A stretch of 53,536 nucleotides of DNA, from positions 1-53,536 of the forward strand of contig DYOR01000006.1 of NCBI GenBank assembly GCA_020720385.1, read 5' to 3'. Below are positions 11,510-52,021 of the stretch, in pieces (position 1 is the first letter of the stretch; each line of letters opens with the position of its first letter). The position numbers and the translations under genes are program-made. This DNA is from Rubrivivax sp. Lineage in GTDB: Bacteria; Pseudomonadota; Gammaproteobacteria; Burkholderiales; Burkholderiaceae_C. The notes under the pieces were generated by a model. The model made no database searches. It saw nothing but the letters and a program-made list of their open reading frames with translations, and was not told where the DNA came from.

Positions 11510-12442
11510 TCATTTGCGCGCCTCCTGGGACTCGGCCTGGTATTTGCCGAACACCGCCAGCGGCACGATGATGAGCAGGATCATCACCACCGCCACGGTG
11601 GAGGCCATGGGCCAGTCGTTGTTGGAGAAGAACTCGTCCCAGATGACGCGGCCGATCATCAGCGTCTCGGGGCCGCCGAGCAGCTCGGGGATGACGTACT
11701 CGCCGACGCAGGGGATGAAGACGAGCATGGCGCCGGCGATGATGCCGGCCTTGGACAGCGGCACGGTGATCTTCCAGAACGCCACCCAGGGCGAGGCGCC
11801 GAGGTCCGCCGCCGCCTCGAGCAGGCGCAGGTCCATCTTCGCCAGGTTGGCGTAGAGCGGCAGGATCATGAACGGCAGGTAGGTGTAGGTCATGCCCAGC
11901 ACCAGCGAGAAGGGCGTGTTCATGAGCTTGCCCGGCGCGGCGATGAGCCCGAGCGACGCCAGCAACTGGTCCAGGCCCGAGCCGATGATCAGGTCGGCGA
12001 CGAAGCCGTTCTCGGTGAGCAGGCCCTTCCAGGCGTAGACGCGCACCAGGAACGAGGTCCAGAAGGGCAGCATCACGAGCATGAGCAGCGCCGGCTGCGC
12101 CGTGGCGCGTGCACGCGCCATGAAGTAGGCGAACGGGTAGCCGATGAACAAGCACAGCACGGTGGTGGCCGCGGCGTAGTGCAGGCTGCTCAGGTAGGTC
12201 TTGAGGTACAGGCTGTCGGTGGCGATGAACTGGTAGTTGGACAAGCGCAGCGTGAGCTGGAGCACGCCGTCGCGCAGGCTCAGCAGGTCCTTGAAGGTCA
12301 CCGCCTCCATCTCGCTGACGCTGATCTTGCCGACGATGAGGAAAGGGAAGAGAAAGAAGACGAGCAGGAACAGGTAGGGCGCGGCGATGACCAGCCGCCG
12401 CCCGCTGAGCAGGGACCGGGCTCGCGCCAGCACAGCGCTCAC
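11510..12442 (-). CDS. potH: Putrescine ABC transporter permease PotH
   Basis: The 310-residue inner membrane permease subunit starts at GTG 12442, which overlaps the potG stop (GTGA), so translation is coupled. It has a long first helix (LVIAAPYLFLLVFFLFPFLI), a large periplasmic loop, then five further helices. The EAA loop is LLEAAADLGASPWVAFWKIT. The segment FIPCVGEYVIPELLGG is characteristic of PotB/PotH-type polyamine permeases. The frame continues upstream of 12442 antisense-like through potG, but that extension has no family similarity. Confidence 0.93.
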   Translation of the reverse strand: MSAVLARARSLLSGRRLVIAAPYLFLLVFFLFPFLIVGKISVSEMEAVTFKDLLSLRDGVLQLTLRLSNYQFIATDSLYLKTYLSSLHYAAATTVLCLFIGYPFAYFMARARATAQPALLMLVMLPFWTSFLVRVYAWKGLLTENGFVADLIIGSGLDQLLASLGLIAAPGKLMNTPFSLVLGMTYTYLPFMILPLYANLAKMDLRLLEAAADLGASPWVAFWKITVPLSKAGIIAGAMLVFIPCVGEYVIPELLGGPETLMIGRVIWDEFFSNNDWPMASTVAVVMILLIIVPLAVFGKYQAESQEARK

Positions 12443-13554: not shown

Positions 13555-13559
13555 GACAC

Positions 13560-14660: not shown

Positions 14661-14746
14661 GGGCGGTCTCCGAGGTCAATGCGAATCAAAGGGGGTGGAT
14701 TCTGGCAGCCGGCACGGCCGCCGTATGTCAGGGGAAGCGCTTGCAT

Positions 14747-16135: not shown

Positions 16136-16146
16136 GGCCGTGGTCC

Positions 16147-17514: not shown

Positions 17515-17567
17515 GTTCGGTCTCGGCAATCGGTGGGTGGGTGCAACCGGGGCCAGGGCCCCGGCAC

Positions 17568-18347
17568 TCAGGCACTGAAAGCGACACTCGGCAAGGGGCC
17601 CCTGACACGGTCTCGGTATTGGTGCATCGCGGCACCAAAGGCCTGCAGCAGGCGCATCGAAACGGGGTTCTCCGCAGCCTGCCACTCGGGATGCCATTGC
17701 ACGCACAGGTTGAAGCCCGGCGCATCCGCCATCGAGAAGGCCTCCACCAGGCCGTCGGGGGCCACGGCCTCGGTGCGCAAGCCGCTCGCCAGCCGCTTCA
17801 CGCCCTGGCCGTGCAACGAATTCACCTGGAAGCTGGCCTGCCCGATGATGGCTTCGAGCACGCCGCCACGCACCACGTCGACGCGGTGCGCGGGTGCGTA
17901 CTGCATCGCCGCGGGCATGCTGTCGTCGGCGCGATGGTCGGCCAGGCCCGCCACCTGGTGCACCGCCTGGTGCAGGCTGCCGCCGAGGGCCACGTTGGCC
18001 TCCTGGGCGCCGCGGCAGATGGCGAACAAGGGCAGGCCGCGCGCCAGCACGCGCGGCACCAGGGCCAGCACCCAGGCGTCGCGCTCGGGGTCCAGCGGCA
18101 GGGCCGGGTCGTGCACGCCTTCGCCGAAGTGCGAGGGGTGCACGTTGGAAGGCGAGCCGGTGAGCAGCACGCCGTGGGCCAGATCGAGCGCCGTGTCGAT
18201 CTCGCCGGCCTCCAGGCGCGGCACCACCAGCGGCAACGCGCCGGCCAGGCGCACCGCCTCGACGTACTTGCGGCCGACGATGTGGTACGGGTGCTCGCCC
18301 AACCGGTGATGGCAGGCCGGGACGAGGACGATGGGTCTGGAGCTCAC
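17568..18347 (-). CDS. puuD: Gamma-glutamyl-gamma-aminobutyrate hydrolase (PuuD-like, peptidase C26)
   Basis: The 259-residue class I glutamine amidotransferase-like hydrolase releases glutamate from gamma-glutamyl-GABA. The nucleophile is the Cys in LFAICRGAQEANVALGG. The His and Glu of the triad are in CVQWHPEWQ. An early motif, ILLTGSPSNVHPSHFG-like (VLLTGSPSNVHPSHFG here), is shared with PuuD and its relatives. The gene lies 7 bp after the PuuB-like oxidase gene and 53 bp before puuA, giving a B-D-A order. Confidence 0.92.
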   Translation of the reverse strand: MSSRPIVLVPACHHRLGEHPYHIVGRKYVEAVRLAGALPLVVPRLEAGEIDTALDLAHGVLLTGSPSNVHPSHFGEGVHDPALPLDPERDAWVLALVPRVLARGLPLFAICRGAQEANVALGGSLHQAVHQVAGLADHRADDSMPAAMQYAPAHRVDVVRGGVLEAIIGQASFQVNSLHGQGVKRLASGLRTEAVAPDGLVEAFSMADAPGFNLCVQWHPEWQAAENPVSMRLLQAFGAAMHQYRDRVRGPLPSVAFSA

Positions 18348-34522: not shown

Positions 34523-35215
34523 GTGCACGACCCCGCCGCCTCCGACAGCCCCGCCGCGCCCGCCGCCAGCGCCGCCCCCGTGCTGGGCGCGTCGGTGCTG
34601 AGTGGGCAGCGCGGCGAGCGCGCGCTGTTTCAGGGTTTGGATCTGCAGTTGCAACCCGGTCAGGTGGTGTGGCTGCGTGGCCGCAACGGCCGTGGCAAGA
34701 CCACCCTGCTGCGCATCATGGCTGGCCTGAGCAGCCCGGCGCAGGGCGCGGTGCTGTACGACGGCGTGGAGCTGCCCAGGCTGGGCGCCGATTGGCGCAG
34801 CCGGCTCATCTACATCGCCCACGCCAGCGCGCTGAAAGAAGACCTCACGGTGGCCGAGTGCCTGCACTTCAGCGCCGCGCTGCAGGGCCGCCGCCACAGC
34901 GATGCCGACATCGTGGCAGCGCTCTCGCGTTGGAGCATCGGCGGCTTGCGGCGGGCGCCGGTGCGCACGCTCAGCCAGGGCCAGCGCCGGCGCACCGCGC
35001 TGGCACGGCTGGCGCTGCCGCATCCGACCTCGGTGTGGCTGCTCGACGAGCCCTTCGACGCGCTCGACGACGAAGGCGTGGCCACGCTGTGCCAGTTGCT
35101 GGGCGAGCAGTCGCGCCGCGGCGGCACCGTGCTGCTCACCAGCCACCAGGCGGTGCCGCTGCGTGACCCGGTGCCGCTGACGCTGGATCTCGACCGCCAT
35201 GCGATCGCTGCATGA
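34523..35215 (+). CDS. ccmA: Heme exporter ATP-binding protein CcmA
   Basis: The 230-residue ATPase works with CcmB to release holo-CcmE from CcmC in cytochrome c maturation. Walker A is LRGRNGRGKTTLLR, the signature is LSQGQRRRTALARL and Walker B is VWLLDEPFDALD. The start is probably GTG 34523, although similarity begins about 20 residues later, so a start nearer 34580 is possible. CcmA opens the operon that continues to ccmI. Confidence 0.92.
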   Translation: MHDPAASDSPAAPAASAAPVLGASVLSGQRGERALFQGLDLQLQPGQVVWLRGRNGRGKTTLLRIMAGLSSPAQGAVLYDGVELPRLGADWRSRLIYIAHASALKEDLTVAECLHFSAALQGRRHSDADIVAALSRWSIGGLRRAPVRTLSQGQRRRTALARLALPHPTSVWLLDEPFDALDDEGVATLCQLLGEQSRRGGTVLLTSHQAVPLRDPVPLTLDLDRHAIAA

Positions 35216-35244
35216 GCAAACGTCACTTGGTTACTTTGCTCATC

Positions 35245-35258
35245 CCCCCCGCGGGGGG
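35245..35258. repeat. GC-only palindrome in the ccmA-ccmB gap
   Basis: CCCCCCGCGGGGGG is a perfect palindrome within the 76-bp gap, followed by the structured ggttgggcgcagcccggccc. Blocks of this kind resemble short dispersed intergenic repeats that I recall from GC-rich Burkholderiales. It could slow ribosomes or polymerase between the two genes. Confidence 0.45.
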
Positions 35259-35291
35259 CGGGTTGGGCGCAGCCCGGCCCTGGGGGCGCTA

Positions 35292-35960
35292 GTGAGGGCC
35301 TTGTTCCTGGCCATCCTGCTGCGCGACCTGCGTCTGGCCGCGCGGCGGCGCATCGACGCGCTGCTGCCGCTGGTATTCTTCGTCGTCGCGCTGAGCCTGT
35401 TTCCGCTGGGTGTGGGGCCCGAGCCGCAGACGCTGCGCCATATCGCGCCCGGTGTCGTCTGGGTCTGCGCGCTGCTGGCCACCATGCTTTCGGTGCAGCA
35501 GCTGTACCAGGGCGATCAGTCCGACGGCTCGCTCGAGCAGATGCTGTTGTCGCCGCAGCCGGCCATCGTGGTGGCTGCGGCCAAGGCCAGCGCGCATTGG
35601 CTGCTGAATGGGGCGCCGCTGGTCGTGGTGGCGCCGCTCGCGGGTGTGTTCTTCGACCTGTCGGGGCCTGCACTGAGCGCCTTGATCATGGGGCTGCTGC
35701 TGGGCACGCCGGTTCTCAGCCTGCTCGGTGGCCTGGGTGCGGCGCTGACGCTGGGTTTGCGCAGCGCCGGCATGCTGCTCATCCTGATCGTGGTGCCGCT
35801 GACCATGCCGGTGCTGATCTTCGGCGCCGGCGCGGTAGGGGCGGTGGAAGCCGGCCTTTCAGCGGCCGGCCACTATTCGCTGTTGGGCGCGCTGCTGCTG
35901 GGCACCGCGCTGAGCGTGCCGCTGGCCACGGCCGCCGCGCTGCGCATTTCCAGTCAATGA
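35292..35960 (+). CDS. ccmB: Heme exporter membrane protein CcmB
   Basis: The 222-residue inner membrane protein has six helices and the family start LFLAILLRDLRLAARRRIDALLPLVFF. The frame is open from 35199, but family similarity starts at GTG 35292. Segments QQLYQGDQSDGSLEQMLLSP and TPVLSLLGGLGAALTLGLR are typical of CcmB. It pairs with CcmA. Confidence 0.92.
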   Translation: MRALFLAILLRDLRLAARRRIDALLPLVFFVVALSLFPLGVGPEPQTLRHIAPGVVWVCALLATMLSVQQLYQGDQSDGSLEQMLLSPQPAIVVAAAKASAHWLLNGAPLVVVAPLAGVFFDLSGPALSALIMGLLLGTPVLSLLGGLGAALTLGLRSAGMLLILIVVPLTMPVLIFGAGAVGAVEAGLSAAGHYSLLGALLLGTALSVPLATAAALRISSQ

Positions 35961-35990
35961 GCCCGCCTGGCCGCCGGCGCTGAAGAGCCC

Positions 35991-36743
35991 ATGTCCGACA
36001 AGATTCGCTGGTACACCTTCTCTGCGCCGTCGCGCTTTTATGCACTCAGCGGCCGGCTCATTCCGTGGCTGTGGGCGCTGACCGTGCTGTTCACCGCAGC
36101 CGGCCTGTACGTCGGCTTGCTGCTGGCGCCCACCGATGCCACCCAGCGCGATGCCTACCGCATCATCTTCATCCACGTGCCATCGGCCTGGATGTCGATG
36201 GTCTTGTACCTGGTGATGGCTTTCTGGGCCGCCATCGGCTGGGCCTTCAAGGCGCGCATGGCCTCGATGATGGCGCGTGCCATCGCGCCAACCGGCGCCA
36301 TGTTCACCTTCGTGGCGCTGTGGAGCGGTGCCATCTGGGGCAAGCCGACCTGGGGCACCTGGTGGGTGTGGGACGCACGGCTGACTTCGGAACTCATCCT
36401 GCTGTTCTTGTATCTAGGCTATATCGCGCTGGTGGAAGCCATCGACGACATCCGCCGCGCCGACCAGGCCGGCGCGCTGTTGGCGGTGGTGGGCGCGGTC
36501 AACGTGCCGATCATCTATTTCTCGGTCAAATGGTGGAACACCCTGCATCAGGGCGCCAGCGTCAGCGTGACCTCGGCACCCAAGATGGCCAGCATCATGC
36601 TCAGCGGCATGCTGCTGATGACATTCGCCTGCTGGGCGTATGCCTTTGCGGTGGTGTTCATGCGCACCCGCGCCATCATCATCGAACGTGAACGCGGCAC
36701 GGCCTGGGTGGCATCACTGCTCACCGGTGCCAAAGGAGTTTGA
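35991..36743 (+). CDS. ccmC: Heme handling protein CcmC
   Basis: The 250-residue protein loads heme onto CcmE. It has six membrane helices and the tryptophan-rich periplasmic motif WGTWWVWDARLTSELIL that contacts heme. The two conserved His are in IFIHVPSAW and NTLHQGAS. The stop at 36743 is followed at once by the ccmD ribosome binding region. Confidence 0.96.
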   Translation: MSDKIRWYTFSAPSRFYALSGRLIPWLWALTVLFTAAGLYVGLLLAPTDATQRDAYRIIFIHVPSAWMSMVLYLVMAFWAAIGWAFKARMASMMARAIAPTGAMFTFVALWSGAIWGKPTWGTWWVWDARLTSELILLFLYLGYIALVEAIDDIRRADQAGALLAVVGAVNVPIIYFSVKWWNTLHQGASVSVTSAPKMASIMLSGMLLMTFACWAYAFAVVFMRTRAIIIERERGTAWVASLLTGAKGV

Positions 36744-36744
36744 G

Positions 36745-36924
36745 TTGTACTGGAGTAGTGCGGCGGAGTTTTTCGCCATGGGGGGCTACGGCCTGTATGT
36801 GTGGGGATCGTTCGGCGTGACTGCCGCACTGATGCTCGTTGAACCCGTGCTCGCGGCGCGGCGCCATCGCAAGGCGTTGCAGGCTGCCGCTGTGGCACAA
36901 GACTGGAAGGAAGCAGCCCGATGA
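36745..36924 (+). CDS. ccmD: Heme exporter subunit CcmD
   Basis: The 59-residue protein helps release holo-CcmE from the CcmABC complex. I infer a TTG start at 36745: aaaggag lies just upstream, and the product then begins [21 protein letters not shown], the normal CcmD beginning, with one helix and a basic tail (AARRHRKAL). The gap to the ccmC stop is one base, and the end overlaps ccmE by 4 bp. Confidence 0.87.
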
Positions 36925-37400
36925 AACCCCGTCACCGCAGAATCGCCCTTGCCGGCGGCGTGCTGCTCACCGTGAGCGCGATCGCCGCGCTGGTGTTCAA
37001 CGCCTTGCAGAGCAGCATGGTGTTCTTCTATTCGCCCACCCAGGTCGGCGCCAAGGAAGTGCCCCTGGGCCGCACCTTCCGTATCGGTGGGCTGGTGAAA
37101 GAAGGCAGCCTGCAGCGCGATGGCGTGAACGTCAACTTCGTCGTCACCGACACGGCGCAGACGGTGCCGGTGCGCTACTCGGGCATCCTGCCCGACCTGT
37201 TCAAAGAGGGCAAAGGCGTGGTGGCGCAAGGCCAGCTCGAAGGCGAGGTCTTCGTCGCCCGCGAGGTGCTGGCCAAGCACGACGAGAACTACATGCCACC
37301 CGAGGCCGCCACGGCGCTGGAGAAGGCCCACCTGTCGGCCAAGCAAAGCCAGGGCACGCTGGTGCAGGGCGGCTCGATGGCACCGGAGGCCAGCCAGTGA
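36921..37400 (+). CDS. ccmE: Heme chaperone CcmE
   Basis: The 159-residue membrane-anchored periplasmic chaperone carries heme covalently bound to a His. That residue is the His of [13 protein letters not shown], the canonical motif. One N-terminal helix precedes a beta-barrel OB fold containing [17 protein letters not shown] and [21 protein letters not shown]. The C-terminal tail is extended and polar. The ccmF GTG overlaps its stop. Confidence 0.96.
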
Positions 37401-39409
37401 TCGCCGAACTGGGCCATTTCGCGCTGTGGCTGGCGCTGGCGGTGTCGCTGGTGCTGGGGGTGGTGCCGATGTGGGGCAGCCTGCGCGCACGCGAAGAGTG
37501 GATGGCGCTGGCGCGTCCTCTGGCGCTGCTCGTGTTTGCGCTGGTCGGCACAGCCTTCGCGTGCCTGACGATGGTGTTCGTGAACAACGACTTCTCGGTG
37601 CTCTACGTGGCCTCGAACTCGAACAGCGAGCTGCCGCTGATGTACCGCGCGGCCGGTGTGTGGGGCGGCCACGAGGGCTCGCTGCTGCTGTGGGCCTTCA
37701 TGCTCACGGTGTGGATGACCGCGGTGGTGTTCTTCAGCAAGCATCTGCCGCTCGAGGTGGTCTCGCGCATCCTGGCGGTGATGGGGCTGGTGGCGGTGGG
37801 CTTTTTGCTGTTCACGCTGATCACCTCCAACCCGTTCGAGCGCCTCTTCCCGGTGCCCGCGGACGGCCGCGACCTGAACCCGCTGCTGCAAGACCCGGGC
37901 ATGATCTTCCACCCGCCGATGCTCTACATGGGCTACGTCGGTTTCTCGGTGGCCTATGCCTTTGCGGTGGCGGCGTTGATCGGCGGCAAGCTCGACGCCC
38001 AATGGGCGCGCTGGACACGGCCCTGGACCGTGGTGGCCTGGATCTTCCTGACCCTGGGCGTTGCGCTGGGCAGCTGGTGGGCCTATTACGAACTGGGCTG
38101 GGGTGGCTGGTGGTTCTGGGACCCGGTCGAGAACGCGTCCTTCATGCCCTGGCTGGTGGGCACGGCGTTGATCCACTCGCTGGCCGTCACCGAAAAGCGC
38201 GGCGCCTTCAAGTCGTGGACGGTGCTGCTGGCGATCACGGCGTTCTCGCTGTCGCTGCTGGGCACCTTCCTGGTCCGCTCGGGTGTGCTGTCGTCGGTGC
38301 ACGCCTTTGCCACGGATCCGTCGCGCGGCCTGTTCATCCTCGCTTTCCTGGTGGTGGTGGTGGGGGCCTCGCTGACGCTGTACGCCTGGCGCGCGCCGTC
38401 GGTGGGCCTGGGCGCGCGCTTCGGGCTGCTGTCGCGCGAGTCGCTGCTGCTGGGCAACAACGTGATGCTGGCCGCGGCCATGGGTGCGGTGCTGTTGGGC
38501 ACGCTGTACCCGCTGCTGCTGGATGCGCTGGAGATGGGCAAGATCTCGGTCGGCCCGCCGTACTTCGACACCGTCTTCGTGCCGCTGCTGACGCCGGTGG
38601 TGTTCCTCATGGGCGTGGGGCCACTGGCGCGCTGGAAGCAGGCTTCGCTGCCCGAGCTGGTGCAGCGCCTGCGCTGGGCAGCCGTGGTGGCTGTCGTGGC
38701 CGGGTTGCTCAGCGGTTGGCTGGCCGGGCGCATCGCACCGATGGCCACCCTGGGCCTGGTGATGGGCTGGTGGCTGGTGGCCAGCGTGGCGGTTGATTTC
38801 TGGGGAAGAGTGAAGCCCGTGCCTGGCATGGCCCTGGCCGAGCGCGTGGCCAGGCTGCCGCGCGCCACGGCGGGCATGATGCTGGCGCACCTGGGGGTGG
38901 CGCTGTTCATCTTCGGCGTCACCATGGTCGGCACCTACCAGGTCGAGCGCGACGTGCGCATGGCGGTGGGCGACTCCACCACCGCCGGTGACTACACCTT
39001 TACCTTCAAGGGCGTGCGCGACGTGCAGGGCCCCAACTACGACGCCGCTCGCGGCACCGTCGAGGTCACCCGCAACGGCCAGGTCGTGACCGTGATGGAG
39101 CCCGAAAAGCGCATCTACCGCGTGCAGAGCAACCCGATGACCGAAGCTGCCATCGACACCGGGCTGACGCGCGACCTCTACGTGTCGCTCGGCGAGTTGG
39201 TGGCCGGCGACGCCTGGATCGTTCGCGTCTACTACAAGCCCTTCGTGAGCTGGATCTGGGGCGGCTGCGTGGTCATGGCGCTGGGCGGGCTGCTGGCCGC
39301 CACCGACCGCCGCTACCGCCTGCGCAAGGCCGACGCCACGCAACCCAGCCCCGAGCAGGCCCCTGCCACCACGGCGCAAGCCGCGGCCGGCGCCGCATCA
39401 CGCGCCTGA
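37397..39409 (+). CDS. ccmF: Cytochrome c heme lyase subunit CcmF
   Basis: The 670-residue protein attaches heme from CcmE to apocytochrome. It starts at GTG 37397, coupled to ccmE. About fifteen membrane helices are predicted. The heme-handling tryptophan motif is [19 protein letters not shown]. Conserved His are found in [37 protein letters not shown] and [13 protein letters not shown]. It is the only CcmF-type protein in the window, so it would also serve the CxxCK site of the octaheme protein unless another copy exists elsewhere. Confidence 0.96.
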
Positions 39410-39440
39410 GCGGCCGTCACTGGTACCAGCCCCTAGCCCC

Positions 39441-39965
39441 ATGAAAAGCCTCAAGTTCCTGATCCCGCTGTCGCTGTTTGTCCTGCTGGCGGTCTTTCTG
39501 GCCGTCGGCCTGCGCCTGAACCCGCGCGAAGTGCCTTCGCCGCTGATCGGCAAGCCGGCGCCTGATTTCACGCTGCCGACGCTGCACCAGCCCGAGGCCA
39601 CGATCTCGCGCAAGGACCTGCTCGGGCAGGTCTGGATCCTCAACGTCTGGGCCTCATGGTGCGTGGCCTGCCGTGAAGAGCACCCGGCGGTGGTCGAGTT
39701 CGGCCGGCGCAAGATCGTGCCCATCTACGGCCTGAACTACAAAGACACGCGCGACGCCGGGATGCAGTGGTTGGCCCGCCTGGGCAACCCTTACGTGGCC
39801 TCGCTTTTCGACGCCGACGGCAAGCTGGGCATCGACTTCGGCGTGTACGGCGTGCCCGAGACCTTCGTCATCGACCGCCAGGGCGTGATCCGCTTCAAGC
39901 ACATCGGCCCGATGACGCCGCAGATCCTGCGCGAGCAGATCGAGCCGTTGGTGAAGTCGCTTTGA
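39441..39965 (+). CDS. ccmG: Thiol:disulfide interchange protein CcmG/DsbE
   Basis: The 174-residue membrane-anchored thioredoxin-like protein keeps apocytochrome cysteines reduced. The active site WASWCVACREEHP is present, as are the GVYGVPETFVIDRQG strand with the cis-Pro and one N-terminal helix (LIPLSLFVLLAVFLAVGL). It lies 31 bp after ccmF. Confidence 0.95.
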   Translation: MKSLKFLIPLSLFVLLAVFLAVGLRLNPREVPSPLIGKPAPDFTLPTLHQPEATISRKDLLGQVWILNVWASWCVACREEHPAVVEFGRRKIVPIYGLNYKDTRDAGMQWLARLGNPYVASLFDADGKLGIDFGVYGVPETFVIDRQGVIRFKHIGPMTPQILREQIEPLVKSL

Positions 39966-40005
39966 GCACCGCCGACAAGCGGCTCTTCAGCCTCCCCCCA
40001 GAACC

Positions 40006-40491
40006 ATGAATATCGCCAAGACCCTGTTGCGCCGCCTGGCGGCGACTGTGCTGTGCCTCACGCTGGCCGGCCCCGCCCTGGCCGGCGAGGCCGCCCCGGC
40101 GGCGCAAGACCCCGCGCTGGAGAAGCAGATGCTCAGCGTGGCCGCCGAGTTGCGCTGCCTGGTCTGCCAGAACCAGACCATTGCCGACTCCAACGCCGAG
40201 CTTGCCGTGGACCTGCGCAACCAGGTGCGCGACATGCTGCGCAAGGGCCAGACGCAAGACCAGATCATCGACTACATGACCGCCCGCTACGGCGACTTCG
40301 TGCTCTACCGCCCGCCGCTGAAGCAGACCACCGCCCTGCTGTGGTTCGGCCCCGCACTGCTGCTGCTTGTTGCCGTGGCGGGCCTGGTGCTGGCGCTGCG
40401 CCGCCGCTCGCGTCTGCCCGACGACCAGTTCGATGCCGAAGCCGAACTGGCCGAAGACAACCCCGTGCTGCCGGGCCGCCCCGCGCCCTGA
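40006..40491 (+). CDS. ccmH: Cytochrome c maturation protein CcmH (CycL type)
   Basis: The 161-residue protein presents apocytochrome to the heme lyase by thiol exchange. The active motif LRCLVCQNQTIADSNAELAVDLR is intact. A signal peptide ends near AGEAAP, and one C-terminal membrane helix (LLWFGPALLLLVAVAGLVLAL) anchors it. It is the short CcmH form, with the TPR part encoded separately as CcmI. Confidence 0.95.
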   Translation: MNIAKTLLRRLAATVLCLTLAGPALAGEAAPAAQDPALEKQMLSVAAELRCLVCQNQTIADSNAELAVDLRNQVRDMLRKGQTQDQIIDYMTARYGDFVLYRPPLKQTTALLWFGPALLLLVAVAGLVLALRRRSRLPDDQFDAEAELAEDNPVLPGRPAP

Positions 40492-40496
40492 CCCCA

Positions 40497-41744
40497 ATGA
40501 CGCCCAACGTACAAGCGCTGCGCCAGCAGCTTCAGGATCTGCGCGCGCGCCACGCCGCAGGCTCGATCACCCCGGAACAATTCGCCGCCGACAAGGCGCG
40601 CATCGAGCGCGCGCTGCTCGACGCGCTCGAGCACGACGGGCCGCCGGCTGCAAGCAGCGGCGCCGCGGCTGCCGGCCGCGGCCGGCGTGCCGGGGTGCAG
40701 ACCTGGTCCTTGCTCGGCGTGTTCATCGTCGCCGTCGCGGCGGTCGGCTACGCCCTCACCGGCTCGCCCGACAAGATCAGCACCGTGCCCGGCGAGGGCA
40801 CCGCCGCGGCCGGCGCGGGTCACGAGATGGACGCCAAGCAGATGGCCGAACTCGTGCAGCGCCTGGCCGAGCGCATGCAGGCCAACCCGGGCGACATCGA
40901 GGGCTGGCTCATGCTCGGGCGCTCGTACGCGGCAATGGGCCGCGCCGACGACGCCTTGGCGGCATTCGACAAGGCCATCAAGCTGCGCCCGGACGACGCC
41001 AACGCGCTGGCCGACTACGCCGACGTGCTGGCGGTGAAGAACGGCGGCACGCTCGAAGGCGAGCCGATGCGGCTCATCGAGCAGGCGCTGAAGGCCGACG
41101 CCACGCACGTCAAGGCCCTGGTGCTCTCCGGTACGGGCGCCTTCAATCGGGGCGACTTCGCCGGCGCGGTGGCGATGTGGGACCGCGCGGTGCAGGCCGG
41201 CCCGCAAGACCACCCGCTGGTGCAGATGGCTGCGGCCGGCGCTACCGAGGCGCGCACGCGCGGCAAGCTGCCTTTGCCGTCCGCGGACGCGACGTCCGAC
41301 GCCAGCACCCGCACAGCGCCCGTGGGGCCGCAGGCCGCACTGCCGGCAACGGCTGGTGCGGCGCCATCACCGCATGCTGCGGCCTCGGCCGTGGATGCCA
41401 GCAAGTCCGTCAGCGGTACGGTCACGCTCAAGCCCGAGTGGCAAGGCCGGGTCTCGCCCGAAGACAGCGTCTACGTCTACGCGCGCGCCGCCGGCGGCTC
41501 GCGCATGCCGCTGGCCCTGCTGCAAAAGAAGGTCAAGGACTTGCCGATCCGCTTCACGCTGGACGACAGCACGGCCATGTCGCCGTCCACCAAGCTGTCG
41601 AGCGTGGCGCAGGTGATCGTCGGGGCGCGGATCACAAAGACCGGTCAGGCAACGGCCCAGCCAGGTGACCTGGAAGGCGCCAGCCAGCCGGTGGCTCTGG
41701 GCGCCGTGGCGGTGGCCGTTCAGATCTCGACCGAGGTCAAGTAG
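40497..41744 (+). CDS. ccmI: Cytochrome c maturation TPR protein CcmI (form with a single membrane helix)
   Basis: The 415-residue protein holds apocytochrome c for heme attachment. It has a charged N-terminal segment of about 60 residues, one membrane helix (SLLGVFIVAVAAVGYALTG), TPR repeats at about residues 110-260 (IEGWLMLGRSYAAMGRADDALAAFDKAI), an Ala/Pro linker and a C-terminal domain beginning SVSGTVTLKPEW. Standard CcmI proteins have a first membrane helix before the charged loop; here the protein begins directly with the loop. Either the helix was lost or I miss an upstream start; no in-frame ATG or hydrophobic stretch is seen upstream. Compare the short paralogue at 52153-52899. Confidence 0.9.
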   Translation: MTPNVQALRQQLQDLRARHAAGSITPEQFAADKARIERALLDALEHDGPPAASSGAAAAGRGRRAGVQTWSLLGVFIVAVAAVGYALTGSPDKISTVPGEGTAAAGAGHEMDAKQMAELVQRLAERMQANPGDIEGWLMLGRSYAAMGRADDALAAFDKAIKLRPDDANALADYADVLAVKNGGTLEGEPMRLIEQALKADATHVKALVLSGTGAFNRGDFAGAVAMWDRAVQAGPQDHPLVQMAAAGATEARTRGKLPLPSADATSDASTRTAPVGPQAALPATAGAAPSPHAAASAVDASKSVSGTVTLKPEWQGRVSPEDSVYVYARAAGGSRMPLALLQKKVKDLPIRFTLDDSTAMSPSTKLSSVAQVIVGARITKTGQATAQPGDLEGASQPVALGAVAVAVQISTEVK

Positions 41745-41813: not shown

Positions 41814-42509
41814 TCAGCTCTTGGCCGCCGAAGCCTCTTCCCCAGCCGGTTTGGCTTCGGGCTTGGGCTCGGCCTTGGCGTCGTCGGCCGGCTTGGTCTT
41901 GTCGGCCTTGCCGGCGTCTTCGGGTTCAACGGGCTCGGCGTGGGCCATGCCGGTGTGGCAATCGATGCAGGTCGCCTTGCCCGAGGTGAACTTCTTGTGC
42001 GACTTGACGGCGTCTTCCGACTGCTTGCTCGTGTCCCAGGTTTCCGGGTTGTGGCAGGTGCGGCAGTTGGCCGAGTTGTTGGCGCGCATGTCGTCCCAGA
42101 CATGGTTGGCCAGTTCCCAGCGCCGGGCTTCGAACTTCTCCTTCGTGGAAATCGTGCCCTGGAACTCGGCGATCACGTCGCGCACGCCCGCGCGGGCCTT
42201 GTAGATCAGCTTCTCGGGGTAGCTGTGCGGCACGTGGCAGTCGGTGCAGCCCGCATGCACGCCGGTGCGGTTATGACCGTGTGCCGACTTCTGATATTCG
42301 GGGTACACGAACTGCGCGTGCGAATGGCACGCGGTGCCGCAGAACTCGTTGGTGCCCGACCAAGCCACGCCGACCTGGGTGCCCACCGTGGCGCCAAAGC
42401 CCAGCACCACGCCAAGCAGCAGCAACGCGAAGACCGACCACTTGGCCGATGGCGAGAACAGCCAGCGCAGGAATCGGCGCAACAGGCCAGGCTGGGAAGT
42501 GGGTGACAT
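41814..42509 (-). CDS. napC: NapC/NirT-type tetraheme cytochrome c (quinol dehydrogenase) with one CX3CH heme site
   Basis: The 231-residue membrane-anchored cytochrome takes electrons from quinol and passes them to periplasmic reductases. One helix (residues 23-47) precedes the heme domain. Three sites are regular: CTDCH (88-92), CRTCH (149-153) and CIDCH (181-185). The first site is C57-GTA-C61-H62, a CX3CH spacing and not CXXCH; the DNA reads tgc ggc acc gcg tgc cat, so it is not a reading error on my part. A charged, Pro/Ala-rich tail of about 40 residues follows. Electrons could go to NapAB or to the octaheme reductase. It is separated from napB by three cytochrome genes. Confidence 0.88.
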   Translation of the reverse strand: MSPTSQPGLLRRFLRWLFSPSAKWSVFALLLLGVVLGFGATVGTQVGVAWSGTNEFCGTACHSHAQFVYPEYQKSAHGHNRTGVHAGCTDCHVPHSYPEKLIYKARAGVRDVIAEFQGTISTKEKFEARRWELANHVWDDMRANNSANCRTCHNPETWDTSKQSEDAVKSHKKFTSGKATCIDCHTGMAHAEPVEPEDAGKADKTKPADDAKAEPKPEAKPAGEEASAAKS

Positions 42510-43192: not shown

Positions 43193-43879
43193 TCAGCGCA
43201 GCGCTTGCACCGGCAGGCGCGACATGTGGTCGGCCAGCGCCTCGATGCTCTCGTTGCTCAGGCCCTTCACGACGTCGCGCATGCGCGGGTTGGCATTCGT
43301 TCTCGTGCCGTCGCGGATGTCGATCGTCTCGCGCCGCAGGTACTTGTAGTGCTGTCCGGATACACGGGGGTAGAAGCGCTGCGCGTCGCCCTCGCCGGCG
43401 TTGCCGTGGCAGTGCGCGCACTCGGCTTCATAGGTCTTGCGCGCCTGTGCCAGCCCACGGCCGGGACCGCGTCCGTGATCGGGCGGCACCGGCAGCGCTG
43501 CCAGGTACGCGGCGATGTCGGCAATGTCCTGCGGGCCGATCACGTGGCGGTCGGCAAAGGGCAGCATCTTGGTGTTGAGCCGGCGCCCAGCGCGCACGTC
43601 CGTGAGCTGCTTGATGAGCACCGTGGCGTGCTGTCCGGCCAGGCGCGGGTAGCTGCCGTCGGGCCGGCCCAGCGCCTGCGCGCGGTGGCAGCCCTGGCAG
43701 ATCTCGAAGGCGATGGCGCCGCGCGCCGCGTCGCCCTGTGCCTGCAGGGCCTGCAGCTTCTCGCCCTGCATGGTGTTCCACTGCGGCTCGGGTTCGCTGG
43801 GCGGTGGCGTCTGCGCCAGCGCCAGTGCGCAGGCGAGCGCCAGTGCGCAGGCCGGCCAGGAATGCGTTGTGCGGAACAT
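43193..43879 (-). CDS. Diheme cytochrome c (c4-like)
   Basis: The 228-residue exported protein has a signal peptide ending near ALAQTPP and two heme sites, CQGCH and CAHCH, in two class I domains. YPRLAGQHATVLIKQL and YPRVSGQHYKYL are the paired c4-type repeats. An axial Met is likely in NTKMLPFADRHV, with another in NPRMRDVV. It is one of two c4-like proteins in tandem between napB and the small cytochrome. Confidence 0.9.
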   Translation of the reverse strand: MFRTTHSWPACALALACALALAQTPPPSEPEPQWNTMQGEKLQALQAQGDAARGAIAFEICQGCHRAQALGRPDGSYPRLAGQHATVLIKQLTDVRAGRRLNTKMLPFADRHVIGPQDIADIAAYLAALPVPPDHGRGPGRGLAQARKTYEAECAHCHGNAGEGDAQRFYPRVSGQHYKYLRRETIDIRDGTRTNANPRMRDVVKGLSNESIEALADHMSRLPVQALR

Positions 43880-43957: not shown

Positions 43958-44584
43958 CTAGGGCAGGGTGGCAAGGTACTCGGACACCGCGACCATCTCG
44001 GCCTCGCTCATGCGCGCGGCCACTGCGCGCATGATGCGTGCCTTGTCGTTGCTGCGTGTGCCCGCCTTGAACTGCTTCATCTGCGCCAGCGTGTAGGCCG
44101 CGTGCTGACCCGCCAGGCGCGGATAGCGGTGGTTGCCGGCCCCCTCGGGCTGGTGGCAGCCGAAGCAGGCCGGCACGTCGGTACGCGTGTTGCCATCCTC
44201 ATACAGGCGCTTGCCGGCGGCAACGGCTTTCTTGTTGCCGCGCGGGCGTGGGCCCGACGGCGTCTGCTCGGCATAGTAGGTGGCCAGGCCGGTGATGTCG
44301 GCGGCCTGAATCTGTGCCAGGAAGGGCGCCATGGCAGCATTCTCGCGCTTGCCTGAAATGAAGTCCTCGAGCTGCTTGGCGATGTGGTCGGCCTGCTGGC
44401 CGGCCAGCCTCGGGATGGCTGGCGCGCTGCTGTTGCCGCCTTCGCCGTGGCACGACACGCACAGGCGGGTCACGAGTTCGGTGGCGTCCGCTTGCGCCAA
44501 GGAGCAGGCAGCGAGCAGCGGCAAGGCGAAAAGGAAGTCCCACCGTGGAAAGGGGCCGCGCTGACGAGAGGTTCTAAGGAGCAT
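43958..44584 (-). CDS. Diheme cytochrome c (c4-like)
   Basis: The 208-residue protein starts at ATG 44584 with AGGA close upstream. A signal peptide (FLFALPLLAACSLAQADA) is followed by CVSCH and CFGCH heme sites and the c4 repeats IPRLAGQQADHIAKQLEDF and YPRLAGQHAAYTLAQMKQF. Axial Met candidates are in NAAMAPFL and RIMRAVAA. The cysteine in the signal region could be read as a lipobox (LAAC), so membrane attachment is possible. It follows napB after a 127-bp gap. Confidence 0.9.
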   Translation of the reverse strand: MLLRTSRQRGPFPRWDFLFALPLLAACSLAQADATELVTRLCVSCHGEGGNSSAPAIPRLAGQQADHIAKQLEDFISGKRENAAMAPFLAQIQAADITGLATYYAEQTPSGPRPRGNKKAVAAGKRLYEDGNTRTDVPACFGCHQPEGAGNHRYPRLAGQHAAYTLAQMKQFKAGTRSNDKARIMRAVAARMSEAEMVAVSEYLATLP

Positions 44585-44711
44585 GGACTGGGCCAGGGGG
44601 AACGGGGGGCGAGATGGCGCATCGTAGCGCGGGCGCGCACGGGCCGCACTACAAGCACCGCCGCGCGCCACCTGCGCCGCGGCGGCGACGCCAGGCCGTC
44701 GACCCGATGCC

Positions 44712-45155
44712 TCAGTTGGAGACGTTGCGCACCAGCGGCTGCACCTCGGCCTGTGGCGCGTGGCAGGTCATGCAGTTGAACTGCTTGCCCGCCAGGGCCA
44801 TGGCCTGGCCGGGCAGGGCCACGTAGTGGTTGGCCGGCGCCGGCCGCGGCTTACCCGCAGCCACCGGCTTGCCGATGTTCCTGGGCTTGTCGTGGCACTC
44901 CAGGCATTCGTTGTTCTTGAAGGTCAGCGGCAGGTACTCATCGACCGCGTGCGTGATCATCGGCGGCATGCCCGAGCCGGGCAGCGGTGCGATGACGCCG
45001 GAGGCTTTCTCGGCGTCGTACCCGAAGGGTGAGGGCTTGACGACGTCGAAGACGCTGGCCTTGCGCAGGCTGACCTGGCTGTCCTCGATGGCCACGGCGG
45101 CGCAGCCGGCCAGGGCAGCCAGGACCACGGCGGCAAGGAGTGCGGGACGCTTCAT
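44712..45155 (-). CDS. napB: Periplasmic nitrate reductase diheme subunit NapB, possibly lipid-anchored
   Basis: The 147-residue protein passes electrons to NapA. Two heme sites are seen, CLECHDK (84-88) and CMTCHAPQ (128-132), with the NapB motif PPMITHAVDEYLPLTFKNNECLECH and NHYVALPG carrying axial His residues. The signal segment contains LAGC at residues 15-18, a good lipobox, so the protein may be a lipoprotein and not soluble. Its start overlaps the napH stop by 4 bp. Confidence 0.93.
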   Translation of the reverse strand: MKRPALLAAVVLAALAGCAAVAIEDSQVSLRKASVFDVVKPSPFGYDAEKASGVIAPLPGSGMPPMITHAVDEYLPLTFKNNECLECHDKPRNIGKPVAAGKPRPAPANHYVALPGQAMALAGKQFNCMTCHAPQAEVQPLVRNVSN

Positions 45156-46123
45156 GAAGAACCTCCGGATACAGGGGGTGCGCTGCCGACCGGCTGAACA
45201 GGGGCAGCGTGGATACGAAAACGCAGGTCGAAATTCAGGCACTGCTCGGGGCACACGGCCACGCAGGCGCCACAGTTCGTGCATTCGCCGCTGACCACCA
45301 CGCCGATCGGGGCGATCTCGTTGAAGTGCAATACGCGCGGCTCGGGGCAGGCCTTGACGCAGTCGCCGCAGCGTGAACAACGGGCATCGTCGAAGGCCAC
45401 CTTGATGAGCCCGACGCGCCCCACCAGCGCCCAGAATGCCCCCAGCGGGCACAAGTGGCCACACCAGCCGCGCTGCAGCACCAGGGTGTCGATGAGCCAG
45501 ATGCCCAACGCCGCGCCCAGCCCCAGGCCGACGCCGTAGATCAGCTCGCGGTGCAGCATGGCGATCGGGCTGTAGGCCTCGAACGCCGCCAGCCCTGCCA
45601 GCGCCGAGACCACCAGCGCCAGGGCCAGCGCGACGTAGCGCGTGTTCGGCGGCAGGCGCACCAGGTCGCGGCTGATGTCCACGCCGAGCTTGTGGCGCGA
45701 CCAGGCCGCCGCATCGGTGACGATGTTCATCGGGCAGACCCAGGAGCAGAACATGCGTCCACCGAGCAAGGCATAGATTGCCAGCGTGAGCAGGGCGCCG
45801 AGCAGCACCTCGCTGGCCAGCGGGTGGCGTGCCACGAGCATCTGCAGCGTCGCAAAGGGGTCGGCCAAGGGGATGCTGCCGAACAGTTGCGCCGACGACA
45901 GGTTGCCGGTGAGCAGCGGCACGCCGAGCAGCTTCCAGCCCCAGTGCAGGCTGCCGTAGAAGAGCAACAGCACGCCGATTTGCACCGCACGGCGGGAGAG
46001 CATGAAGCGTTCGCGATGCAGCCATTGGCCCGGTGTGGCCGGGCGCGCCAGGTGGCGCACCGGTGGCCTGCGCGCGCCGGCCGTGGCCTTGTTCGGGTGG
46101 TCTGGGGTGGCGGGTTTGCTCAT
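45152..46123 (-). CDS. napH: Quinol dehydrogenase membrane subunit NapH
   Basis: The 323-residue inner membrane protein has four helices and two cytoplasmic [4Fe-4S] motifs near the C-terminus, CSRCGDCVKACP and CTNCGACVAVCP. The conserved cysteine pairs in GRMFCSWVCPMN and GWCGHLCPLG are also present. NapH accepts electrons from quinol and works with NapG. An N-terminal basic extension of about 40 residues precedes the first helix. Confidence 0.95.
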   Translation of the reverse strand: MSKPATPDHPNKATAGARRPPVRHLARPATPGQWLHRERFMLSRRAVQIGVLLLFYGSLHWGWKLLGVPLLTGNLSSAQLFGSIPLADPFATLQMLVARHPLASEVLLGALLTLAIYALLGGRMFCSWVCPMNIVTDAAAWSRHKLGVDISRDLVRLPPNTRYVALALALVVSALAGLAAFEAYSPIAMLHRELIYGVGLGLGAALGIWLIDTLVLQRGWCGHLCPLGAFWALVGRVGLIKVAFDDARCSRCGDCVKACPEPRVLHFNEIAPIGVVVSGECTNCGACVAVCPEQCLNFDLRFRIHAAPVQPVGSAPPVSGGSS

Positions 46124-46136: not shown

Positions 46137-46910
46137 TCAGGGCTTGCCGCGGTTGAGATAGTCCAGCGCCTTGGGCAGCGTGTCGGGCTGCGCTGGCGCC
46201 GGGGCGGCCGGCGCTGCCGGGGCTGCGGTGCCGTCCTGGCCGGGCAGGGGGGCGACGTACTGCTCGTGCTTCCAGCCCAGCCGGTAATGCTCGCCCACCT
46301 TGCCTTGCACCAGCGCCGGGTCGAGCACGCGGATGGACGCCAGTTGCGTGGGGCACTGCTTTTCGCAGATGCCGCAGCCGGTGCATGCCTCGGAGTGCAC
46401 CACCGGCACGAACATCGCGTGCTTGCTGATCTGCCGCTGCTGCACGTGCAGCGTGATGGCCGTGCCCTTGAGTGGGCAGACGCGGTAGCAGACCTCGCAG
46501 CGCAGGCCCAGCCACGACAGGCAGTGCTCGGGGTCGATCACCGCCAGGCCCATGCGCGCCTGCGTCACGTCGGTGAGCAGCGGGTCGAGCGCGCCGGTGG
46601 GGCAGGCCTTCACGCACCACAACTGCTCGCACATGTAGCACGGGATGTCGCGCGGGGTGATGGTGGGCAGCCCGGCCAGACCCGGCTCGCCGGTCTTGAT
46701 GAGGCGGATGGAGTGGTACGGGCAGGCCTGCACGCACTGCCCGCACTTGATGCATGCGCCGCTGAAGCCGTCGCCGACCAGCGCGCCGGGTGGACGCATC
46801 GGCGACGCGGCGTGGGCCTGCTGGATGAGCAGCGTGAGCCAGCCCAACCCCACGCCGCCGGCTGCAGCGGCGCCCTGCGCGGTCTTCACGACGAACTGGC
46901 GGCGGTCCAT
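46137..46910 (-). CDS. napG: Periplasmic ferredoxin-type protein NapG
   Basis: The 257-residue protein has a Tat-type start (MDRRQFVVKTAQG) and four [4Fe-4S] cluster motifs: CIKCGQCVQACP, CYMCEQLWCVKACP, CEVCYRVCP with its upstream Cys, and CTGCGICEKQCP. It relays electrons from NapH toward NapB/NapA. The C-terminal 50 residues form a Pro/Ala-rich tail. Confidence 0.95.
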   Translation of the reverse strand: MDRRQFVVKTAQGAAAAGGVGLGWLTLLIQQAHAASPMRPPGALVGDGFSGACIKCGQCVQACPYHSIRLIKTGEPGLAGLPTITPRDIPCYMCEQLWCVKACPTGALDPLLTDVTQARMGLAVIDPEHCLSWLGLRCEVCYRVCPLKGTAITLHVQQRQISKHAMFVPVVHSEACTGCGICEKQCPTQLASIRVLDPALVQGKVGEHYRLGWKHEQYVAPLPGQDGTAAPAAPAAPAPAQPDTLPKALDYLNRGKP

Positions 46911-49736: not shown

Positions 49737-50024
49737 TCAGGGTTGGAGCGCTGGAGCGGAGCCGCTGGGCTCGGCGTCCTGGGTTTCGTCGTCCGCATCC
49801 AGGCAGTGGCAAACCAGGTCGGTGCAGACCACATGCGGCAGGCCGCGGATGCGCATGAAGCCGTCGACTTCGGCGCCGACGTCGGCGGCCTCCTGCACCA
49901 CGACGATGCGCCCTGTGCGGACGTCGTGCTGGCGTACCTCCACGCCCGGCAACTCGACCAGACTGGCCAAGACCTGCTGCACGCGCGAGGGCTCGGCAGT
50001 AACGAGAATGCCCGAAAGGTTCAT
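49737..50024 (-). CDS. napD: NapA maturation chaperone NapD
   Basis: The 95-residue cytoplasmic chaperone binds the Tat signal of NapA. It begins NLSGILVTAEPSRVQQVLASL, with GVEVRQHDVRTGRIVVVQE as the second half of the ferredoxin-like fold. The C-terminal 30 residues are acidic and variable. It is the first gene of the nap run, reading away from the octaheme gene. Confidence 0.93.
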   Translation of the reverse strand: MNLSGILVTAEPSRVQQVLASLVELPGVEVRQHDVRTGRIVVVQEAADVGAEVDGFMRIRGLPHVVCTDLVCHCLDADDETQDAEPSGSAPALQP

Positions 50025-50242: not shown

Positions 50243-52021
50243 ATGGTTCGAAAAGATTCAAGATGGCTGGCCAGGGTGTTGGGCATGTCCTGCGCGCTGG
50301 CTTTGTCGATGGGCGTGTCGCTGGCTCTGGCGCAGCCGCCGAGCAAGGTGCAGCAGGCCAAGGCGGCACGCGACGCCAAGGCGCCGGCCACGATGCTCAA
50401 GACGAATGCGACCAAGCTCAAGGCCTACGACGCGACCGAGTGCTACGAGTGCCACGAGGAAGTCAAGGGTTTCCACTACACGGGTGGCCACAAGAGCGTG
50501 GGCTGCGACGCCTGCCACGGCGAGCTGGATGCGCACAAGCCCAAGGGCAAGGGCCGGCCGACGACGAACATGGATCCGGCCAACTGCGGCACCTGCCACG
50601 AGGCGCAGTACAAGAGCATGTACACGATGAACCCCGAGAAGCAGGCGAATCGCGAGAAGTCCGTTGCCACCTTCGCCACCTACGAGAAGCTGCTCATGCC
50701 GCATGGCTTCACCAAAGAGCACAACCAGCCGCGCTCGCACTCGTTTGCGCTGTACGACCAAGTGGTCGTCGACCGCGCCTTCGGCGGCCGTTTTGTCAAC
50801 AAGGAAGGCAAGCAGGGCCTGGCCCGCATGGGCGGCAACTTCAAGATCTGGGACGTCCTCAAGGACGAGTTCCCGGGCGAACCGCACAAGGTCTTCAAGC
50901 CGGGCACCGCTGCGGCCGTGAACCCGGTGTGCATCAGCTGCAAGACCTCCGACCACATCCTTGACTGGGCCTATTTGGGTGACCCGCACCCGGCGGCCAA
51001 GTGGAGCCGCGTGTCCAAGGTCAACGAGATGGTCAAGGACGTGAACCACTCGCTGAACTGCAACTTCTGCCATGACCCGCACAGTGCCAAGCCGCGCATC
51101 ATCCGCGACGGCCTGATCCAGGCGCTGACCCGTCCGGAAGCCGACACACTGTGGCACAAGGATCCCAAGGGCGCGAAGATCGAGGTCAAGGATCTGGGCG
51201 AGCGCGGCTTCACGCGCAAGATCGCCATGCTCAGCCGCTACGACACCAAGCTGCAATGCGGCCAGTGCCACGTGGAATACAACTGCAACCCTGGCACCGA
51301 CCCGACCACCGGCCAGCCCATCGGCATGGGTGACCAGCGCACCAACCACTTCCCGCTGAAGGACGTGACGCAGATCCAGAAGCACTACCAGGACCTGAAG
51401 TTCGGTGATTTCAAGCACGGCATCACCGGGGCCCTGCTGTTCAAGGGCCAGCATCCTGATTCCGAGGTTTACTACAACAGCACGCACCAGAAGGAAGGCG
51501 TGGAGTGCAACGACTGCCACATGCCCAAGGTGAAGGACAAGAAGACCGGAAAGACCTACACCCTGCACTGGCAGACCTCGCCCAAGAACTACATCAAGGA
51601 GACCTGCCTCACTTGCCACAAGGACTGGACCGAGAAGCAGGCCGTCTACAGCATCGACTCGCTGAAGAACCGGTGGGACGGCAAGATGCGCAAGGCCGAG
51701 TTCTGGCTCACCCGGTTGATCGACAAGTTCGAGGCGGCGCAGAACATGGGTGTGGACGAGGCGGTGCTCAAGGACGCGCGCGCCAAGCACGCCGAAGCGC
51801 ACATCAACTACGAGTGGTGGTCGGCGGCGAACGGCTCGCATTTCCACAACCCGCAGCAGTTCGATGTGTCGATCAACAAGGGCATGGCCGTGGCGCAGGC
51901 CGGCATCAAGCTGCTCGACGATGCGATGGCGAAGAAGCGTGCCGAGATGGCTGCACCTGCCGCCGCCAAGCCGGTGGCCGATGCCGGCATGCTCAAGCCG
52001 GTGGCTGTCGTCACCAAATAG
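50243..52021 (+). CDS. Octaheme cytochrome c nitrite reductase (ONR, TvNiR-like)
   Basis: The 592-residue exported protein (signal peptide 1-30) carries eight heme sites: CYECH 67, CDACH 88, CGTCH 115, CISCK 230, CNFCH 273, CGQCH 339, CNDCH 422 and CLTCH 455. The fourth is CxxCK, giving a Lys-ligated catalytic heme as in nitrite reductases. The catalytic Tyr and His appear as Y346 (CHVEYNC) and H404 (KGQHPDSE). C348 two residues after the Tyr matches the Tyr-Cys cross-link of the octaheme enzyme from Thioalkalivibrio; pentaheme NrfA lacks it. The catalytic Arg is probably R164 (NQPRSHSF). Expected reaction: nitrite to ammonium by six electrons. The ribosome binding site gaggag is 8 bases ahead of ATG 50243. 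Hydroxylamine oxidation (HAO) is unlikely because HAO lacks CxxCK. Confidence 0.9.
   Translation: MVRKDSRWLARVLGMSCALALSMGVSLALAQPPSKVQQAKAARDAKAPATMLKTNATKLKAYDATECYECHEEVKGFHYTGGHKSVGCDACHGELDAHKPKGKGRPTTNMDPANCGTCHEAQYKSMYTMNPEKQANREKSVATFATYEKLLMPHGFTKEHNQPRSHSFALYDQVVVDRAFGGRFVNKEGKQGLARMGGNFKIWDVLKDEFPGEPHKVFKPGTAAAVNPVCISCKTSDHILDWAYLGDPHPAAKWSRVSKVNEMVKDVNHSLNCNFCHDPHSAKPRIIRDGLIQALTRPEADTLWHKDPKGAKIEVKDLGERGFTRKIAMLSRYDTKLQCGQCHVEYNCNPGTDPTTGQPIGMGDQRTNHFPLKDVTQIQKHYQDLKFGDFKHGITGALLFKGQHPDSEVYYNSTHQKEGVECNDCHMPKVKDKKTGKTYTLHWQTSPKNYIKETCLTCHKDWTEKQAVYSIDSLKNRWDGKMRKAEFWLTRLIDKFEAAQNMGVDEAVLKDARAKHAEAHINYEWWSAANGSHFHNPQQFDVSINKGMAVAQAGIKLLDDAMAKKRAEMAAPAAAKPVADAGMLKPVAVVTK

Follow-up and report, generated by a model that had tools for sequence, protein, structure and literature searches.

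What would an octaheme nitrite reductase (ONR) do in a Rubrivivax genome, encoded back to back with a periplasmic nitrate reductase? The question is raised by onr, a gene in a stretch of 53,536 nucleotides of Rubrivivax sp. (the window), taken from an assembly of 3.36 Mb that is 93% complete and consists of 210 contigs. Judging from sequence and gene context, we put the probability that the protein serves as a respiratory nitrite-to-ammonium enzyme at about 0.8. The genes for a NapC/NirT-family protein, Nap, ONR and heme maturation all lie on one island of about 18 kb (Table 1). Elsewhere in the window, at about 3900-17700, genes read by eye resemble those for polyamine uptake and breakdown, including a binding protein near 13560-14660, a permease-like gene (10594-11448) and a glutamine-synthetase-like gene (4857-6182).

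Table 1. Features of the island around onr, with positions in the window
Feature	Position	Strand	Evidence or remark
ccmABCDEFGHI cluster	34523-41744	+	Pfam CcmB, Cytochrom_C_asm, CcmF_C, Redoxin, CcmH
ccmA	34523?-35215	+	
ccmB	35199-35960	+	
ccmC	35991-36743	+	
ccmD	36778-36924	+	
ccmE	36921-37400	+	
ccmF	37397-39409	+	
ccmG	39441-39965	+	
ccmH	40006-40491	+	
ccmI	40497-41744	+	
CymA/NapC-like (NapC/NirT-family) tetraheme protein	41814-42509	-	Pfam Cytochrom_NNT 4.6e-57, over cut-off
Monoheme class I cytochrome c, 103 aa	42647-42958	-	Pfam Cytochrom_C 1.3e-8
Diheme class I cytochrome c	43193-43879	-	Pfam Cytochrom_C 6.9e-16, two CxxCH
Diheme class I cytochrome c	43958-44671	-	Pfam Cytochrom_C 3.6e-19, two CxxCH
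napB, diheme subunit	44712-45167	-	Pfam NapB 2.3e-17, over cut-off; NCBIfam below; start approximate
napH, quinol dehydrogenase ferredoxin subunit	45152-46123	-	NCBIfam NapH 317.8 bits, cut-off 234
napG, ferredoxin-type	46137-46910	-	NCBIfam NapG 276.3 bits, cut-off 269
napA, periplasmic nitrate reductase catalytic subunit, 919 aa	46946-49705	-	NCBIfam NapA 1233.7 bits, cut-off 904
napD, chaperone	49740-50024	-	Pfam NapD 6.9e-17, over cut-off; NCBIfam below
FNR-type palindrome TTGACGCTCGTCAA	50108-50121	.	napD/onr divergent intergenic region, 218 bp
onr, octaheme nitrite reductase	50243-52021	+	Eight heme motifs HHHKHHHH; PDB and fold matches
CcmI/NrfG-like TPR protein, 248 aa	52153-52899	+	Directly downstream of onr; Pfam TPR_CcmH_CycH 1.5e-15, over cut-off

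In the list of open reading frames onr starts with ATG, ends exactly as given in Table 1 and encodes 592 amino acids without an internal stop; its GC content by codon position is 0.57/0.41/0.90. The protein begins with a signal-like stretch (read by eye) and has heme motifs starting at residues 67, 88, 115, 230 (CISCK), 273, 339, 422 and 455, i.e. three CxxCH, one CxxCK and four CxxCH, with H404 between sites six and seven. Eight C..C[HK] motifs compare with a mean of 0.08 and a maximum of 2 in 5000 shuffles of the protein. The active-site residues R164, K234, Y346, C348, Q403 and H404 are present, and R164, Y346 and C348 line up with the enzyme of Thioalkalivibrio nitratireducens (TvNiR) in a sequence alignment. 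The motif count and an active-site Arg, Tyr and Cys belong to the definition of ONRs in PMC5433712, and the motif order with its His is that given in PMC10716430. The first-pass annotation, made from the letters alone, had described seven CxxCH sites and one CxxCK as the fourth; these, the ends of the frame and the residues that it named are all correct. It had also considered the Tyr-x-Cys pair (Y346/C348) to identify an ONR. The pair is indeed there, but cannot identify the family by itself, because an NrfA-type protein with five hemes from the same genus (L006) also reads CHVEYYC. That protein, encoded in genome G026, has CxxCH throughout, and two kinds of ammonifying reductase, the ONR and the NrfA type, seem to occur within one genus.

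The active-site columns were invariant in 44 aligned ONR rows (the window and 43 chosen from 80 fetched loci), and E345 and K401-x-Q403, which we take to be the calcium ligands, are kept in the same alignment. The loci had been collected with the patterns QCHVEYN and DCHMPKV, 80 of 505 confirmed loci being taken; since the scan used QCHVEYN, the conservation of CHVEYN over the 80 loci is biased towards the tyrosine and is not independent evidence. A Tyr-Cys cross-link and catalytic activity are predicted for the protein. The eighth heme motif is CX4CH (e.g. CLTSxCH) in place of CxxCH in 14 of the 80 loci (L037, L046, L051, L060, L062, L064, L067, L071, L073, L079, L083, L084, L087 and L088), and the ONR of L068 has CX4CH at heme 3, whereas the consulted parts of a survey of the family give the last motifs as four CXXCH (PMC10716430).

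Comparison with known structures gave the same identification. The nine best rows of a PDB search were octaheme nitrite reductases at 483-490 bits (TvNiR, E 7.8e-146), whereas the other 13 rows were pentaheme NrfA at 80 bits or less. An AlphaFold2 model of the protein (pLDDT 87.4, pTM 0.87) retrieved Thioalkalivibrio and Trichlorobacter ONR at Foldseek ranks 1-8, with TM scores by query of 0.89-0.93; it superposes on TvNiR 3rkh at TM 0.93 / 0.91 with 42% identity and on the Trichlorobacter ammonificans ONR 8rv0 at 0.89, against 0.54-0.62 for NrfA folds. HAO and OTR were found neither among the 24 PDB chains matching at E up to 10 nor among the best 50 of 211 fold matches. HAO, OTR and NrfA were accordingly rejected by the sequence and fold searches in PDB, the pentaheme NrfA also by its motif number, eight here and not five. 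A whole-genome search with PF13447 gave no match anywhere, controls included.

A tree made by a quick method, with TvNiR and two NrfA-type outgroup rows and without HAO or OTR, separates the ONRs, including that of the window, from the outgroup with support 100; TvNiR joins near the outgroup by long branches. (L001, L002, L003 and L005, being the same proteins as the window, L011, L012 and L059, were omitted.) A more careful tree, without NrfA, combined 31 betaproteobacterial rows with 16 chosen from 51 other loci. The 31 sequences, the window included, fall on one side of a branch with support 100/99, which is not an independent test because the group was drawn from the quick tree; the window protein groups with L011 and L012 (97/90). 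One ONR labelled betaproteobacterial, that of a member of the Thiobacillaceae (L033), lies outside the clade and was counted among the 51 others. The ONRs of L018 (titled Lysobacter) and L028 (titled Bordetella parapertussis) lie inside it, and their titles look like loose bin labels. Membership of the ONR family, rather than of pentaheme NrfA, as originally proposed for this protein, is thus as certain as sequence can make it.

GTDB places the Burkholderiales under the Gammaproteobacteria. The first-pass annotation had called the genome Burkholderiales-like, in agreement with the ONRs of three relatives, G010 and G018 of the same genus and G055 of the same order, whose sequences are the same as in the records titled Burkholderiales bacterium S01.Bin058, Rubrivivax sp. 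bin.222 and Duodenibacillus massiliensis. It had also supposed that ONRs come mainly from haloalkaliphilic sulfur oxidisers and deltaproteobacteria and that one would be unusual here. This view finds no support in the 18 of 399 sampled Burkholderiales genomes (own genome included) that match the ONR with an E of 1e-60 or lower, one of them at an identity of just 33%, nor in the literature: ONRs from bacteria living at neutral pH and low salt were described in 2017 (PMC5433712), and a 2023 survey reported onr from 14 bacterial phyla, the Gammaproteobacteria being one of the dominant groups, though its main text does not mention the Burkholderiales by name (PMC10716430). The 18 genomes and the clade of 31 betaproteobacterial sequences therefore make the ONR in Burkholderiales no exception; judged by these relatives, it is a lineage and not an oddity. 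Carriers of clade ONRs include the isolate Rubrivivax sp. A210 (L016), Ramlibacter, Aquabacterium and Sutterellaceae. The genome paper of strain A210 describes NarGHI and NirBD and never uses the word octaheme (PMC8218464).

Within the genus, a full-length ONR was found in four of 37 genomes, some of them incomplete, and none of 72,556 plasmids had a match over 80% of the ONR. In both trees the same-genus ONR of L004 belongs to another subclade than that of the window. Between the two genomes the identities are 59% for napG, 63% for napH, 58% for ccmF, 60% for ONR and 83% for NapA. As the other island genes diverge as much as onr, and the completeness of G009 is no more than 73%, we do not claim that onr moved horizontally within the genus.

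The nap genes D, A, G, H and B all point away from onr, as first annotated. NapA, NapG and NapH exceed their NCBIfam cut-offs, and NapB and NapD exceed those of Pfam only. A periplasmic route from nitrate through nitrite to ammonium, as proposed in the first-pass annotation, is plausible and the best reading of these family matches taken with the ONR identity. The gene list of that annotation lacked ccmA-I, the CymA/NapC-like gene, the TPR gene behind onr and the FNR-type box. In a second species of the genus (G009, L105), napBHGAD likewise diverges from onr and its TPR gene, and a CymA/NapC-like gene, a monoheme cytochrome c and ccmF-I lie, differently ordered, within a span of about 10 kb. 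With the window proteins as queries, napA was found within 8 kb of onr in two of the 31 clade loci (the window and L004), many loci being cut by contig ends, and in 20 of the 51 loci outside the clade. No nap gene adjoins onr in L106 and L107, the same-genus genomes with the closest ONRs. On both counts, the clade shows no general linkage of nap to onr. L023 has a napD-like stretch after onr and its TPR gene (12597-12845), with no napA match in the available flank.

In the 93% complete assembly, Pfam finds no other member of the family of the CymA/NapC-like gene, whose product scores below the cut-offs of the NCBIfam models for TorC, NapC/NirT and NrfH. Its first heme motif is CX3CH (CGTACH), as is that of its counterpart in the second species (L105:13368-13979); the residues that follow differ, CHSHAQ in the window and CHSMQW in L105. 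An atypical CX3CH near the membrane helix is on record for the CymA homologues of Rhodoferax ferrireducens in the part consulted of PMC6295460.

The palindrome between napD and onr is the only match in the 53.5 kb to TTGAYNNNNRTCAA (TTGAYN4RTCAA), which we take to be an FNR-type site; 0.03 matches were expected, and 3 of 100 shuffles had one. Up to 400 nt upstream of onr the pattern occurs in 21 of 30 clade loci, which are not 21 independent events because the loci are related, against 0.03 expected in all of them by first-order Markov resampling (L021, with 9 nt upstream, was left out). Outside the clade it occurs in four of 50 loci against 0.1 expected. Spacers and positions of the box differ among the clade loci, and it is missing from nine of the 30, all six Sutterellaceae among them; a near variant is present in L015 and L022. 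On the contig of ccoN the genome has a gene for an FNR that exceeds the curated cut-off and contains a CxxCx5C motif (two of four Crp-family matches in the genome were scanned). Binding of FNR at the predicted nap/onr box would fit these features. No description of the box or of the CcmI-like neighbour of betaproteobacterial onr was found in the partly consulted literature, a search that left subscription papers mostly aside.

The CcmI-like gene is an under-described partner of betaproteobacterial onr. It adjoins onr in all 29 assessable clade loci: among the 31, it lies within 1.4 kb downstream in 24, is the ccmI of a ccm operon just upstream in five, and two (L013 and L055, left out of the count) end too early. 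For L004, L011, L015, L022 and L024, where the TPR frame starts before the end of onr, a downstream place was counted from tblastn positions; the distance from onr to the gene is about 1.4 kb in L081 and L082. Within 5 kb and on the same strand, none was found in the 51 other ONR loci except a weak match in L084; as the window protein served as seed of the TPR profile and the flanks of some of these loci are short, the absence weighs less than the presence. The NrfG model matches the window protein at 4.2e-12, below its cut-off. A similarity search with the window proteins placed ccmE within 8 kb of onr in nine of the 30 other clade loci and in none of the 51 outside the clade.

In the ccm cluster itself the CcmF/NrfE-family and CcmI models score over cut-off; CcmA has an ABC-transporter match only and was named, like CcmD, CcmE and CcmG, from position and sequence. 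The single CcmF_C match in the 93% complete genome lies in this cluster; a second lyase of the CcmF/NrfE type was not found. Of two NrfE subfamily models, the window CcmF passes one and fails the other, which does not make it an NrfE, because the CcmF of Cupriavidus necator behaves in the same way. Among 20 chosen ONR carriers, 11 have one CcmF-like gene and nine have two; a lone CcmF is, in these genomes, common but not universal. The first 590 positions of L015, an Aquabacterium bin, hold the end of a CcmF-like coding sequence, 50% identical to the window CcmF and directly upstream of onr, possibly a dedicated lyase.

According to a review consulted in part, CxxCK sites need their own recognition, for which E. 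coli uses NrfEFG, and S. oneidensis lacks nrfEFG (PMC12285233). For Shewanella, CcmI is proposed to act with CcmF in maturing the CxxCK-type NrfA (PMC6976685, likewise consulted in part). The gene context favours a chaperone-based attachment of the CxxCK heme in the Rubrivivax-like genome, and that the onr-linked TPR protein is this chaperone has somewhat less than an even chance. Plasmid pHG1 of C. necator H16 also carries napD, A and B, a NapC-type gene and ccmABCDEFGHI together. They run in one direction throughout, napE (napEDAB) is annotated in place of napGH, and onr is missing; the genera with an ONR or NrfA plasmid match (tallied for all 18 rows) do not include that of C. necator. For this reason ccm beside nap need not concern ONR. 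It also counts somewhat against the reading, in our view rather less probable than not, that the betaproteobacterial ONRs form a distinct FNR-controlled ammonifying lineage in which the CxxCK heme would be attached without a separate NrfE, an onr-linked CcmI paralogue or a ccm operon at onr re-targeting the general CcmF to the lysine heme.

As for the fate of nitrite elsewhere in the genome, no match to NirS was found and none to NirK over cut-off, so that ONR is the only respiratory nitrite reductase found in this 93% complete assembly. Two matches far below the NirK cut-off were taken as multicopper oxidases. No NarG was named among eight of ten molybdopterin matches (the window napA and seven that were scanned, three of which matched no family with an E of 1e-100 or lower), so that a NarG or Nas may be present. 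With an assembly of 210 contigs at 93% completeness and a search that covered NirS and NirK, a second lyase or another nitrite sink, such as NirBD, may have escaped notice. The genome encodes cNorB, an aa3 and a cbb3 oxidase; cNorB fits the nor-rich pattern of onr genomes, which often carry nor (PMC10716430, in part).

Hydroxylamine, sulfite and peroxide are likewise reduced by ONRs in vitro (PMC5433712), a point against nitrite respiration as the role of the protein. In a rival reading the ONR detoxifies nitrite, hydroxylamine or NO, with nap serving redox balancing: cNorB is encoded without a NirS match or a NirK over cut-off, the closest same-genus ONRs lack adjoining nap, and some NrfA act in this way (PMC12285233). 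Against it stand the promoter region common to nap and onr, with its one FNR-type box, and a gene of the NapC/NirT family on the island, no other member having been found in the genome; we regard it as unlikely. Sulfite or another oxyanion as the physiological substrate is suggested by TvNiR, which reduces sulfite to sulfide (PMC5433712, in part) and was crystallised with sulfite according to PDB titles; with onr divergent from napDAGHB and the sulfite reductase MccA far away by fold (best E 0.07), it is very improbable. That onr is a decaying or silent acquisition, as its patchiness in the genus and the other subclade of L004 might suggest, is equally hard to credit for an intact frame with its active-site columns, a promoter box and a partner gene such as the clade retains, and a place within a group of 31 betaproteobacterial sequences.

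Under respiratory nitrite ammonification, the reading we prefer, the region would form a periplasmic nitrate-ammonification island. At low oxygen an FNR-type regulator would bind the single palindrome between napD and onr and switch on both divergent transcripts. NapA/NapB would reduce nitrate to nitrite in the periplasm, with quinol electrons arriving via NapGH and/or the CymA/NapC-like tetraheme protein, and ONR would carry out the six-electron reduction of nitrite to ammonium at its Lys-ligated heme 4. There R164, Y346 (probably cross-linked to C348) and H404 would surround the substrate, with Ca2+ near K401-x-Q403. Electrons may pass to ONR straight from the CymA/NapC-like protein or by way of the small cytochromes c. 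The hemes would be attached by the Ccm system of the same island; because no second CcmF/NrfE-type lyase was found, we propose that the CcmI/NrfG-like TPR protein presents the CxxCK site to the ordinary CcmF.

The ONR enzyme, its pairing with Nap and a genome-inferred DNRA by NrfAH in two Rubrivivax species (PMC8012365, as far as consulted) are already in print. TvNiR (PDB 2ot4, 3rkh) shares with the window protein the order HHHKHHHH, the active-site Arg, Tyr, Cys, Gln and His and the whole fold; the present host is betaproteobacterial and its ONR lies on the other side of the 100/99 branch. At the present locus a CcmI-like gene and an FNR-type box adjoin onr. In Trichlorobacter ammonificans and T. 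lovleyi, ONR likewise partners Nap in reducing periplasmic nitrate to ammonium (PMC11972089, in part). In T. lovleyi onr is directly downstream of nap, whereas here the two diverge from one promoter region, and ccmA-I and the CymA/NapC-like gene share the island. The ONRs of Rubrivivax sp. A210, Ramlibacter, Aquabacterium and Sutterellaceae in public genomes belong to the same clade as that of the window; napA lies within 8 kb only in the window and L004. The pentaheme NrfA of E. coli also has a CxxCK active-site heme and a homologous catalytic half; it differs in its five hemes, its score of 80 bits or less and its NrfEFG, no second CcmF-type lyase having been found here. The CymA homologues of R. 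ferrireducens are of the NapC/NirT family with a similar CX3CH; a role of the present protein as a hub for Nap and ONR may be supposed.

DNRA surveys lean on nrfA, and the Burkholderiales are usually counted among the denitrifiers. A carrier of Nap and ONR in which NirS has no match and NirK none over cut-off would retain its nitrogen as ammonium and yet resemble an incomplete denitrifier. Besides, the recurring CcmI-like gene bears on which protein recognises CxxCK, a question posed in the consulted part of the NrfA review (PMC12285233).
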